Shown: one piece after another, positions 39,776 through 43,137 of the stretch | Numbering within the stretch: position 1 is the first letter of the stretch | How the letters are laid out: every line of letters begins with the position of its first letter | Source of the DNA: Actinokineospora enzanensis DSM 44649 | GTDB lineage: Bacteria; Actinomycetota; Actinomycetes; Mycobacteriales; Pseudonocardiaceae | Assembly (NCBI RefSeq): GCF_000374445.1 | Contig: NZ_KB894413.1 | Span: forward strand, 124,001-188,000 | Direction: 5' to 3' | DNA length: 64,000 nt | The notes under the pieces: model-generated | Databases searched by the model: none | The model's input: only the letters and a program-made list of their open reading frames with translations | What the model was told of the DNA's origin: nothing | Program-made: the position numbers and the translations under genes

Positions 39776-42316
39776 TCACCGCCCCGGAGGTGCTCTCGCC
39801 GCACCGCGCGCCACCACCACGGGCCGCCCGCCATCGGCGACCACGGCGCTGTCCCCGTCCTGGTCGGTGCGCGCCACCAGGACACCGCGCCTGGCGAGCT
39901 CGGCCAGCGTGCGCGGGCTGGGATGCCCGTAGCGGTTGCCCGCGCCGACGCTGACCAGGGCGACCCGGGCGCCGACCGCGGCCAGGAACGCCGGGTCGGT
40001 GTAGCGGGAGCCGTGGTGCGGCACCTTGAGCACGTCGGCGGCCAGGTCCCGGTGCGCGGCGAGCAGGTCGGCCTGCGCGGCCAGCTCCACGTCGCCGGTC
40101 AGCAGCACCCGGCCCGCGGCCGTCGTCGCCCGCAGGACCACGGACTGGTTGTTGATCGCCGTACCGTCCTTGTCGTCACCTGTCCTCTCGCCACTCCCCT
40201 CCCTGTCGCCCGCAGGCGCCAGTACCTCCAGCGCCAGTCCCGGCCAGGCCATCCGCTGCCCGGCACTCAGCCGCACCAGCGGCACACCCGCGTCCCGGGT
40301 CTCCCGCCGCACCTGCCGCCACGCCCAGTCCGGCGCGCGCCCCGACCCGACGGCGACCGCGCCCACCGCCCGATCCGCGAGCACCGCCGACAACCCACCG
40401 ACGTGGTCGGCGTGCAGGTGCGTGAGCACCACCAACGGCACCTGCCGCACACCGAGCCGATCGAGACAGGCCCGGACCGGCGCCGGATCAGGACCCGTGT
40501 CGACCAGCACCGCCCGCCCCTTGTCGGCGGTGGACAACGCCAACGCATCCCCCTGCCCGACATCGCACGCGACCACCGCCCACCCCGGCGGTGGCCACCC
40601 GGGCGCGATCACCTGGATCGGGACGACCACTACGACCACCCCGACCAGGCCCAACGCAACCAACACCCGTGCCCGGCGACCGCGTAACAGCAATACGAGG
40701 CCGCCCAGCGCCGCGAGCAGCAACGCGCCACCCCACCAGCCCGCGGGCCAGTCGAGCACCGCGCCGGGCACGGCCGCCGCGTGCCTGCCGACCAGGACGA
40801 GCCAGTCCACCTCCGGTCCCGCCGCCCGCGCGAACCACTCGGCAGGCACGGCCACGGCCGCCAGCAGCCCCAGCACGGTCGCGGGCGCCACCACCGGCGC
40901 GGCCACCAGGTTCGCCACGACCGCCACCAAGCTCACCTGACCGCTCACCCCGGCCACGACCGGCGCCGTGACCAGGTGGGCGGCCACCGGCGCGGCCAAC
41001 GCCTCGGCGAGCACCCTCGGCACCCGCCGTCGCACGAGCGCCTCCACCCACGGCGGGGTCAACAGGACGAGCGCCCCGGTCGCCAGCACCGACAGCCCGA
41101 ACCCCACGCTGACGGCCATGTCCGGGTCGTGCACCACCAGCACCACCACCGCCGTGGCGAGCGCGGGCAACGCCGACCGTTCCCGGCCGAAAGCCAGGGC
41201 GAGCAGCCCGACCGCGCCCATGACACCCGCCCGCAGCACGCTCGGCTCCGGCCCGGCGAGCACGACGTACCCGACCAGCGCGGCCAGCGCGCCCGCGGCG
41301 GACCCACGTGGGCCGATCCGGACCAGGCCGAGCAGCCAGAGGACCGCGAGGCAGACGATGGCCAGGTTCGCGCCGCTGACCGCCAGCAGGTGGGTCAGCC
41401 CGGCCGCCCGGAACTCGCCCTCGACGGCCTGGGTCATCCCGTCGGTGTCGCCAACGACCAGGGCGGGCAACAGCCCGGCCGAGTCGGGGTCGAGCACGCC
41501 CGCGGCCGCCCGCAGCCCGGCCCGCAGGTGCTGCGCGACGCCCTGCCACCACGGCGCCGGACCGACCCGGTTCGGGGGACCCCGGACGCGCAGCACGGCG
41601 ACGGTGAGCGACCCCGGCCGGGCAGGCGCGAGGTTGCCGCGTGCGGAGAAGTCCTGTCCCGGCAACAACTCCGCCCATCGCTCGACCGGCGCCAACACCA
41701 GAACCCGACTGCTCCCGGTCGCCGCGGGCACGACGACCGACTGAACCCCGGACGGCTGCGCCCCGAACCCGCTCCCCCGCACCGACTTCGGCCGCTCCGC
41801 GACGGTGAGCCGCAGCTCGACGGCGTCCGATCGAGCCGCCGCCACCCGCAACGGATCACTCGCCGCGCCCTCTATCCGGCTGGCGATCGGCCAGATCACC
41901 AGCGTGCCGCAGACCGCCAACGGCCAAGCCGCGCCGAGAACGGGGCCATGGGCTCGCAGCCCCCGCAGGCCACCGACCACGACGGCGAGCACACCCACCA
42001 CGACGGCCAGCGACCAGTGCACGAGCAGACCAAGCAGGGCACCCAGCCAGACAGCCAGCGCCGCGGGCACCAACCGCCAGTCGGCCGGGGCTGACTCCCG
42101 AGGTCGCGTGTCGAACCACTTGGCCCGCAACACACCCAGCCGAGACGTCGACCCACCCGGCAACAGCCCCACCGCCGCAAGCCGCGCGGCGGATGCCTGT
42201 TGCCCGGCCCGCGAACCCATCGGCACCGGATCAGCCGATGCGCCTACACGGTCATCCGAGTTCATCGCCGGACGCTCGCTCGAACCTGAGCGGGTCCCGC
42301 CGACATCCTGTGTCAT
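39776..42316 (-). CDS. comEC: ComEC/Rec2-type DNA uptake channel protein
   Basis: 846 residues. An N-terminal OB-like region with DUF4131-type sequence (~90-260) leads to the multi-pass Competence domain, which starts FRAAGLTHLLAVSGANLAIVCLAVLWLLGL. A C-terminal metallo-beta-lactamase domain has VVLTHLHADHVGGLSAVLADR and VLKVPHHGSRY, with metal ligands intact. It forms the inner-membrane DNA channel, and the MBL domain may degrade the complementary strand. ATG 42316 overlaps the stop of the 45-codon frame upstream (ATGA). Confidence 0.92.
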   Translation of the reverse strand: MTQDVGGTRSGSSERPAMNSDDRVGASADPVPMGSRAGQQASAARLAAVGLLPGGSTSRLGVLRAKWFDTRPRESAPADWRLVPAALAVWLGALLGLLVHWSLAVVVGVLAVVVGGLRGLRAHGPVLGAAWPLAVCGTLVIWPIASRIEGAASDPLRVAAARSDAVELRLTVAERPKSVRGSGFGAQPSGVQSVVVPAATGSSRVLVLAPVERWAELLPGQDFSARGNLAPARPGSLTVAVLRVRGPPNRVGPAPWWQGVAQHLRAGLRAAAGVLDPDSAGLLPALVVGDTDGMTQAVEGEFRAAGLTHLLAVSGANLAIVCLAVLWLLGLVRIGPRGSAAGALAALVGYVVLAGPEPSVLRAGVMGAVGLLALAFGRERSALPALATAVVVLVVHDPDMAVSVGFGLSVLATGALVLLTPPWVEALVRRRVPRVLAEALAAPVAAHLVTAPVVAGVSGQVSLVAVVANLVAAPVVAPATVLGLLAAVAVPAEWFARAAGPEVDWLVLVGRHAAAVPGAVLDWPAGWWGGALLLAALGGLVLLLRGRRARVLVALGLVGVVVVVVPIQVIAPGWPPPGWAVVACDVGQGDALALSTADKGRAVLVDTGPDPAPVRACLDRLGVRQVPLVVLTHLHADHVGGLSAVLADRAVGAVAVGSGRAPDWAWRQVRRETRDAGVPLVRLSAGQRMAWPGLALEVLAPAGDREGSGERTGDDKDGTAINNQSVVLRATTAAGRVLLTGDVELAAQADLLAAHRDLAADVLKVPHHGSRYTDPAFLAAVGARVALVSVGAGNRYGHPSPRTLAELARRGVLVARTDQDGDSAVVADGGRPVVVARGAARAPPGR

Positions 42317-42450
42317 CGGAGATCCCCCTGCCCAGGCACAAGGATCTCCATGACCTCAAGGACGAACACTCCGCTGCCCTCCGACGAGGAGCACGCATAA
42401 GTGTCGTCCCAGGCCGGGGACAGCGGTTCGTGGGTGTTTGGGCTGGTCAT
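42313..42450 (-). CDS. 45-residue smORF wedged between comEA and comEC
   Basis: ATG 42450 overlaps the comEA stop, and the smORF stop overlaps the comEC ATG, both as ATGA. AGGTGA lies 7 bases upstream of its ATG, and an AGGGGGA stretch inside its 3' end serves comEC. The peptide begins MTSPNTHEPLSPAWDDTY, has one Cys (ACSSSEGSG) and ends VFVLEVMEILVPGQGDLR. Codon third positions are G/C in roughly three quarters of the codons. No homologue recognised. Either a real small protein or a translational link. Confidence 0.6.
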   Translation of the reverse strand: MTSPNTHEPLSPAWDDTYACSSSEGSGVFVLEVMEILVPGQGDLR

Positions 42451-43124
42451 CGGATGGTCACCTGCTCGCGGAGCTTGTCGAATCGGGTCGGGCCGATGCC
42501 CTCTATCTCGCGGAGTTGTTCGACGCGGCTGAAGCGACCATGGGCCGTGCGCCAGTCGAGGATGCGTTGGGCGGTCACGGTTCCCACGCCGGGGAGCGTG
42601 TCGAGCTGGGGCAGGGAGGCCGTGTTCAGGTTGACCTTGCCGCCCGGTTGGGACGGCAGGGCCTCGCTCGCGGGCACGCCGACGGCGATCTGTTCGCCGT
42701 CCACGAGTCTGCGGGCCAGGTTGAGTGTGGACAGATCCGCGTCCGGGAGCGCTCCACCACAGGCGCGCAGGGCGTCGTCGACCCGCGCTCCCTCGGGCAG
42801 GGTGCGCAGGCCCGGCTCGTGCACCTTGCCCACCACGTCGACCACGATCGAGGCCGTGCTTGGCTCGGTCACGACGGCGGCGACCAGGTCCGGCGGTGGT
42901 TCCCGGGGCGGCGCCCCGGACAGGCCGAGCACGGCCGTGGCCAGCCCGGCCGCGACCACCACCCCGATCCCCACGAACACCGGTATCCGGCGCTCCCGGA
43001 AGCGGCTCAGCAGCGAGGGACCCCGGGGCTCGGGTTCCTCCGCGCGGTCCCACGGCCGCCCGGCGACGGCCGCGAGGCGGTCGAGGACGGTGTCCATCTG
43101 TGCGGTGCGTTCGTTGTCTGCCAT
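42447..43124 (-). CDS. comEA: ComEA-like DNA-binding protein
   Basis: 225 residues from ATG 43124 (MADNERTAQMDTV). A cytoplasmic N-terminal part, one membrane helix at ~50-70 (VFVGIGVVVAAGLATAVLGLS), a SLBB-like region (VVDVVGKVHEPGLRTLPEGARVDDALRACGG) and a C-terminal helix-hairpin-helix pair (VNLNTASLPQLDTLPGVGTVTAQRIL). It binds incoming DNA outside the membrane and passes it to ComEC. TAGCGT is 7 bases upstream, so the transcript may be leaderless. Confidence 0.93.
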   Translation of the reverse strand: MADNERTAQMDTVLDRLAAVAGRPWDRAEEPEPRGPSLLSRFRERRIPVFVGIGVVVAAGLATAVLGLSGAPPREPPPDLVAAVVTEPSTASIVVDVVGKVHEPGLRTLPEGARVDDALRACGGALPDADLSTLNLARRLVDGEQIAVGVPASEALPSQPGGKVNLNTASLPQLDTLPGVGTVTAQRILDWRTAHGRFSRVEQLREIEGIGPTRFDKLREQVTIR

Positions 43125-43131
43125 GTCTCCG

Positions 43132-43137
43132 ACGCTA
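43132..43137 (-). promoter_or_regulatory. -10 box of a leaderless promoter (comEA)
   Basis: TAGCGT on the minus strand with seven bases to the comEA ATG at 43124. Confidence 0.5.

Follow-up and report, generated by a model that had tools for sequence, protein, structure and literature searches.

A candidate 45-codon translational bridge between comEA and comEC of Actinokineospora enzanensis, possibly created by duplication of the gene junction

The locus described here lies in a stretch of 64,000 nucleotides from Actinokineospora enzanensis DSM 44649 (contig NZ_KB894413.1, positions 124,001 to 188,000), referred to below as the window, and all positions are counted from its first letter. Two neighbouring genes on the minus strand (Table 1) had been named comEA and comEC in a preliminary description made from the sequence, and the domain content of their products bears these names out, since domain searches revealed SLBB and helix-hairpin-helix domains in the former and Competence and metallo-beta-lactamase domains in the latter. 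With NCBIfam models, the ComEA helix-hairpin-helix region meets its cut-off, with the comE (73 of 152 bits) and ComEC_Rec2 (186.9 of 190) models remaining under theirs. Translation of the minus strand from 42450 to 42313 yields a frame of 45 residues followed by TGA, the product of which is MTSPNTHEPLSPAWDDTYACSSSEGSGVFVLEVMEILVPGQGDLR. The ATG of this small frame overlaps the comEA stop as ATGA, the comEA frame ending at 42447, and its TGA overlaps, again as ATGA, the ATG at 42316, which is the first ATG of the comEC frame (39776-42316). Translation and coordinates therefore confirm the exact fit between comEA and comEC, with an ATGA overlap on either side, that had been reported for the frame. 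The ribosome sites that had been noted at both junctions were likewise recovered by calculation, with pairing energies of -9.8 kcal/mol for the small frame and -9.4 kcal/mol for the comEC ATG at 42316 against the sequence of the 16S tail. The stop-free frame around the 45-codon ORF amounts to 273 codons and extends back through comEA out of frame, so the openness of the 45 codons alone tells little.

Table 1. Positions of features at the comEA-comEC junction, numbered within the window
Feature	Position	Strand	Basis
45-codon frame, ATG to TGA, candidate translational bridge	42313..42450	-	translation, shuffles, ribosome site, codon score
comEA frame as read (HHH_3 and SLBB domains); TGA overlaps small-frame ATG	42447..43133	-	domain matches
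comEC frame from first ATG (Competence and MBL-fold domains); putative start ATG 42316 or TTG 42163	39776..42316	-	
First copy of 9-nt direct repeat TCCGATGAC (comEA stop / small-frame start)	42446..42454	-	
Second copy of TCCGATGAC (small-frame stop / first comEC-frame ATG)	42312..42320	-	
Predicted hairpin, -27.3 kcal/mol alone, taking in ribosome site and ATG 42316	42312..42354	-	
Stretch from presumed ancestral start codon to ComEC homology	42083..42450	-	

The junction at the 3' end of comEA was read in 158 genomes of the family and order, the focal genome included; comEC was located in 151 of these, and in seven no comEC was found. A comEA match was present in 162 genomes of the family, and 34 of those junctions were left out of the reading. 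At 95 of the 151 junctions comEC starts on [A/G/T]TGA overlapping the comEA stop, the coupled start codon being GTG in 62 cases, ATG in 32 and TTG in one. The comparison places ATG 42450 at the usual, presumably ancestral, start position of comEC, such that the small frame would be using the orphaned start of comEC, in which case the upstream overlap calls for no chance explanation. Overlapping and co-transcribed comEA and comEC have been described in Micrococcus luteus (PMC8467076), the overlap being the state found at those 95 junctions also; unlike the focal locus, no intervening frame is mentioned in the part of that account available to us. Within the genus (16 genomes) the two genes are directly coupled in three and separated by a 4-codon frame in one; three have a TAG comEA stop with comEC nearby, and in nine the ComEC homology is displaced by 277-1037 nt. 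The ComEC match begins at residue 67 or later in 13 of the 15 congeners, at residue 33 in G002 and at residue 52 in G010, and in one Kibdelosporangium it begins at residue 21. The comEC match of a further congener, G003 (locus L033), holds one in-frame TGA.

The fit of the small frame was compared with dinucleotide shuffles of the gap, 20000 in each run and with the first ATG taken as given, where one run covered the gap to one codon short of the ComEC homology and the other the full gap. A frame of at least 45 codons arose in 7173 of 20000 shuffles (36%), and any overlapping start was encountered in 18-20% of gap shuffles. An ATGA fit into the open comEC frame was obtained in 684 of 20000 shuffles in the shorter run and in 765 of 20000 in the full-gap run (3.4-3.8%), whilst such a fit combined with a ribosome site as strong as that at 42316 occurred in 78 of 20000 (0.4%). 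The length of the small frame is therefore ordinary, and its downstream fit is unusual. The earlier assertion that so exact a fit is unlikely by chance thus stands for the downstream half, but neither for the length nor for the upstream ATG, which sits at the usual comEC start.

Nine bases, TCCGATGAC, are identical at both ends of the frame, 134 nt apart, and it is this spacing that sets the second TGA in frame; a match as long was present in 27 of the 1657 shuffles that bridge by ATGA. The congener G010 carries GTCCGATGA at both ends of an unrelated 82-codon frame (equalled in 51 of 1888 bridging shuffles), and in G004 a 22-nt copy of the comEA junction, with 19 identical positions, is located immediately before the comEC start, where none of 400 shuffles was as good. 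The G004 copy sits beside the bridging overlap as opposed to at the overlap itself. Additionally, the last codons of the G004 frame are common to the 4-codon frame of its sister G008, and these two genomes are therefore not independent. In a plain local-alignment repeat test of 15 genomes a value below 0.05 was returned for G004 only (focal genome, p 0.098; G010, 0.19), and hence the argument for a duplication depends on the register of the matches and on G004. These junctions suggest that extra DNA entered between the two genes and that the stop/start motif was duplicated as it did so.

A bridge created by duplication of the junction is the best single reading of the locus, one that we hold tentatively and with slightly less than even confidence. 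Its basis is the usual comEC start in relatives, the lack of credible homologs of the peptide, the nine-base repeat and the calculated ribosome sites. According to this reading, ATG 42450 would have kept the place of the ancestral comEC start together with its overlap with the comEA stop, whilst a gain of DNA would have duplicated the stop/start motif; with the second ATGA in register 134 nt downstream, translation from the first ATG would run for 45 codons and end there, and comEC may now begin at the second ATG, 42316. A ribosome finishing comEA would then re-initiate at once on the small frame, would melt in its passage across the 45 codons a hairpin thought to hide the 42316 site, and would terminate at the small-frame TGA before re-initiating on comEC. 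The hairpin that is returned by fold prediction encloses the comEC ribosome site at 42316. The gap folds better than its shuffles in two tests (z -3.3 and -3.4), and for a 171-nt stretch one of 200 shuffles folds as well. A role of the frame in cis in the expression of comEC is plausible. Of the readings considered, the likeliest is that the frame marks DNA acquired at the former comEC start site, the peptide probably being a by-product.

If 42316 is the comEC start, then the layout equals that of the iraD leader frame and of uPPE2-PPE2. In Escherichia coli the stop of a short frame overlaps the start of iraD, RNA structure hides the ribosome site, and expression was found by experiment to need translation of the short frame (PMC5574718). 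The focal frame would be its counterpart if comEC starts on the ATG that its stop overlaps and if the predicted hairpin hides the site there. The iraD ORF is an experimentally established, CsrA-controlled frame of a 5' leader (PMC5574718), whereas the focal frame lies between two genes and is known from sequence. In Mycobacterium tuberculosis, uPPE2 and PPE2 overlap by AUGA, and PPE2 expression depends on the short frame being translated, chiefly through termination-reinitiation (PMC11260477). This too is an actinobacterial stop-start overlap of a short frame with the next gene, but one that belongs, as far as the available part of the source goes, to a riboswitch-linked leader and to no competence operon, and that is not placed between two coupled genes (PMC11260477). 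More generally, both sides of the focal frame have the type of junction seen in ATGA gene pairs with termination-reinitiation; such pairs, in the portion of the source at hand, join annotated genes, whereas the link here is a frame of doubtful protein function (PMC6728339).

Recurrence of bridging was assessed at the 56 uncoupled junctions, from which 20 without an overlapping start and two (G015 and G177) without a located ComEC N-terminus were dropped, leaving 34. A junction counted as bridging if its frame ended in a stop codon that overlaps a putative start of the open comEC frame, and the frames of genus g20 (described below) were scored as non-bridging, their overlap with comEC being of another kind. 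Bridging was present at 11 of the 34 junctions versus 2.0 expected from shuffles, at 3 of 7 within the genus versus 0.85 (P 0.03), and at 7 of 26 with gaps of more than 150 nt versus 1.6. With one row per lineage, grouped by hand, the figures were 8 of 18 versus 1.6, and for the lineages with gaps over 150 nt, the focal one excluded, they were 4 of 10 versus 1.1 (P 0.013), both the lineage grouping and the gap cut-off having been set after the data were seen. The remaining 23 of 34 rows, and 10 of 18 lineage rows, are non-bridging; these include four congeners with 46-48 codon frames, a fifth being outside the test. The recurrence lends modest support to the frame, and not the peptide, being what is kept. 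In g65 (L195, L200 and L211, from G408, G409 and G407), frames of 170, 190 and 329 codons occupy the interval from comEA to comEC, and the final GTGA of each falls on a start of the comEC frame. Shuffles stay open for as long in 22%, 19% and 11% of cases, respectively, and the three frames have an RNWRI-like stretch in common.

It is quite possible, although we lean against it, that the frame arose by chance in a non-coding spacer, the surviving start reading gained DNA to a random stop and comEC being translated from a site of its own, such as TTG 42163. The start of comEC is uncertain, since ATG 42316 and TTG 42163 have equally good predicted ribosome sites: among nine in-frame starts further along, as far as residue 83, eight pair at -5.0 or weaker and TTG 42163 pairs at -10.0, whilst the -9.4 of ATG 42316 is attained by 5.5% of the 862 ATGs in the window. 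Clear ComEC homology starts at DWRLV (residue 79), 364 nt past the comEA stop, and TTG 42163, which is residue 52 of the comEC frame, is 27 codons ahead of it and closer to the N-terminal length of relatives. Were comEC to start at TTG 42163, the 45-codon frame would not be a bridge. ComEC residues 1-76 have a flat base composition by codon position, 0.70/0.66/0.72 versus 0.82/0.55/0.91 in the body of the gene, as if not long translated. Chance is favoured also by the shuffles that reach 45 codons or the ATGA fit, by the lack of a credible homolog of the peptide, and by the frames at the same codon in G010 (82 codons) and G004 (108 codons), whose codon scores are not gene-like (p 0.81 and 0.96, respectively). 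However, it accounts less well for the rarity in shuffles of the fit together with a strong ribosome site at 42316, for the nine-base repeat at the junctions, for the gene-like codon usage of the frame and for bridging being commoner in other lineages than in shuffles. Separately, a second very stable hairpin is predicted at 42157-42206 (-32 kcal/mol in 50 nt), within the pre-homology part of the comEC frame, and contains TTG 42163.

An interpretation of the frame as a protein-coding gene confined to this species or of very recent origin, with a peptide that functions in DNA uptake or in some other process, comparable to the conserved small frames of other genera, appears distinctly unlikely. 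In its favour, the codon score is -0.044 per codon, whereas stop-free dinucleotide shuffles give -0.511 (p 0.001); the 45 residues include one arginine, and GC content by codon position is 0.62/0.49/0.78. The score falls between those of real genes (mean 0.35) and of wrong frames (about -0.7) in the window. Of 89 further short frames of the window that lie outside coding-like frames, however, 10 score as high; judged by eye, about half of these ten resemble real genes and the others do not, so that the score does not decide the matter. Structure prediction from the single sequence, used without an alignment, gave no confident fold (pLDDT 63.5, pTM 0.16), which is weak evidence against a protein. 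The proposal that the frame encodes a conserved small component or regulator of DNA uptake, recognisable at the comEA-comEC junction of relatives, found no backing, and a lack of conservation in relatives is the very outcome that the preliminary description had named as refuting it. None of 389 other family genomes, 15 congeners among them, contained a match to the peptide at E<=0.01, a peptide homologue was absent from the 15 congener junctions read, and a search of 60 relatives with the peptide returned nothing credible (best other E 0.06). The single further match in a class sample of 393 other genomes (E 0.0076) has an internal stop, comes from a genome that is 63% complete and is spurious. 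No Pfam or NCBIfam family was found for the peptide at E<=10, nothing credible in PHROGs (best match 0.051), E values of 5-6 for the five matches listed from 15 plasmid records, and no match in phages, such that the frame is known from a single sequence. At the DNA level, the best similarity between the focal gap and those of congeners had an E value of 0.085. The open-licence literature, from which subscription papers mostly fall away, contained nothing found to join comEA and comEC with Pseudonocardiaceae or with an intergenic small ORF.

Small frames do occur at the same codon elsewhere, and these are the closest parallel for a young gene. In five of six genomes read of genus g20 (L141, L142, L145, L149 and L153; G255, G258, G256, G257 and G259), a membrane-like frame of 62-98 codons starts from the comEA stop by ATGA, and in all five its stop overlaps by 8 nt a comEC ATG that is two residues before the homology. 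The g20 frame is conserved: the six pairs that leave out G255 have a purifying-type pN/pS ratio of 0.24-0.51, and the pairs that include it 0.61-0.93. Five of eight genomes read of genus g55 (L147, L151, L152, L154 and L156; G251, G253, G249, G252 and G250) have a conserved frame of 38-39 codons that starts MTIP[FL]LP at the comEA stop and contains one hydrophobic stretch, with pN/pS of 0.39-1.0 and with ComEC homology 223-1228 nt downstream in the three genomes where it was located. In one Actinokineospora clade, frames of 46-48 codons are present at the comEA stop (L051, L052, L053, L054 and L056; G005, G012, G006, G015 and G009), with ComEC homology 277-632 nt past that stop. These five membrane-like frames have gene-like codon scores (p 0.004 or less) and ambiguous pN/pS, at 0.95-1.20 in nine pairs and 0.43 in G006-G015. 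Three of them resemble the first membrane hairpin of ComEC: those of G005, G012 and G009 match a ComEC N-terminal profile, each outscoring 20 shuffled controls, the other two do not, and a piece of the comEC 5' end may therefore have been left or copied there. Four of the small proteins, one from g20, were searched and had no Pfam match and only weak NCBIfam matches below cut-off.

Other origins considered for the focal frame found no support. A common origin with the 46-48 codon frames of congeners is not supported, the frame scoring -1.9 bits against their profile and -4.2 bits against the ComEC N-terminal profile. As to a repeat element, the genome has no other near-full copy of the stretch, and no terminal inverted repeats were seen by eye.

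Action of the stretch as RNA or DNA, with the palindrome at 42312-42354, between the two genes, serving as an operator or attenuator and with the frame incidental, is very improbable: the strong folding of the gap and a palindrome without mismatch that occurs only here in the genome speak for it, but terminator and promoter scans found nothing at the frame, no Rfam family scored above its threshold at the stretch, and seven of eight congener gaps tested fold ordinarily, G004 (z -2.65) being the exception.

Should the reading as a duplicated-junction bridge be true, the operon would keep its two genes translationally coupled despite inserted DNA, and new small genes could arise from a start site already in place. 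A wider, family-level proposal, which we put forward as rather unlikely, is that gain of DNA between comEA and comEC repeatedly orphans a comEC start that is still coupled to comEA, thereby providing a cradle for small frames, of which some would only bridge and others (those of g20, of g55 and of one Actinokineospora clade) would now be conserved small membrane-like frames of the DNA-uptake operon, the focal frame representing a young stage. The species compared would then present, at a single locus, a series in which direct overlap is followed by arbitrary bridging frames, and these by small membrane-like frames that are conserved.
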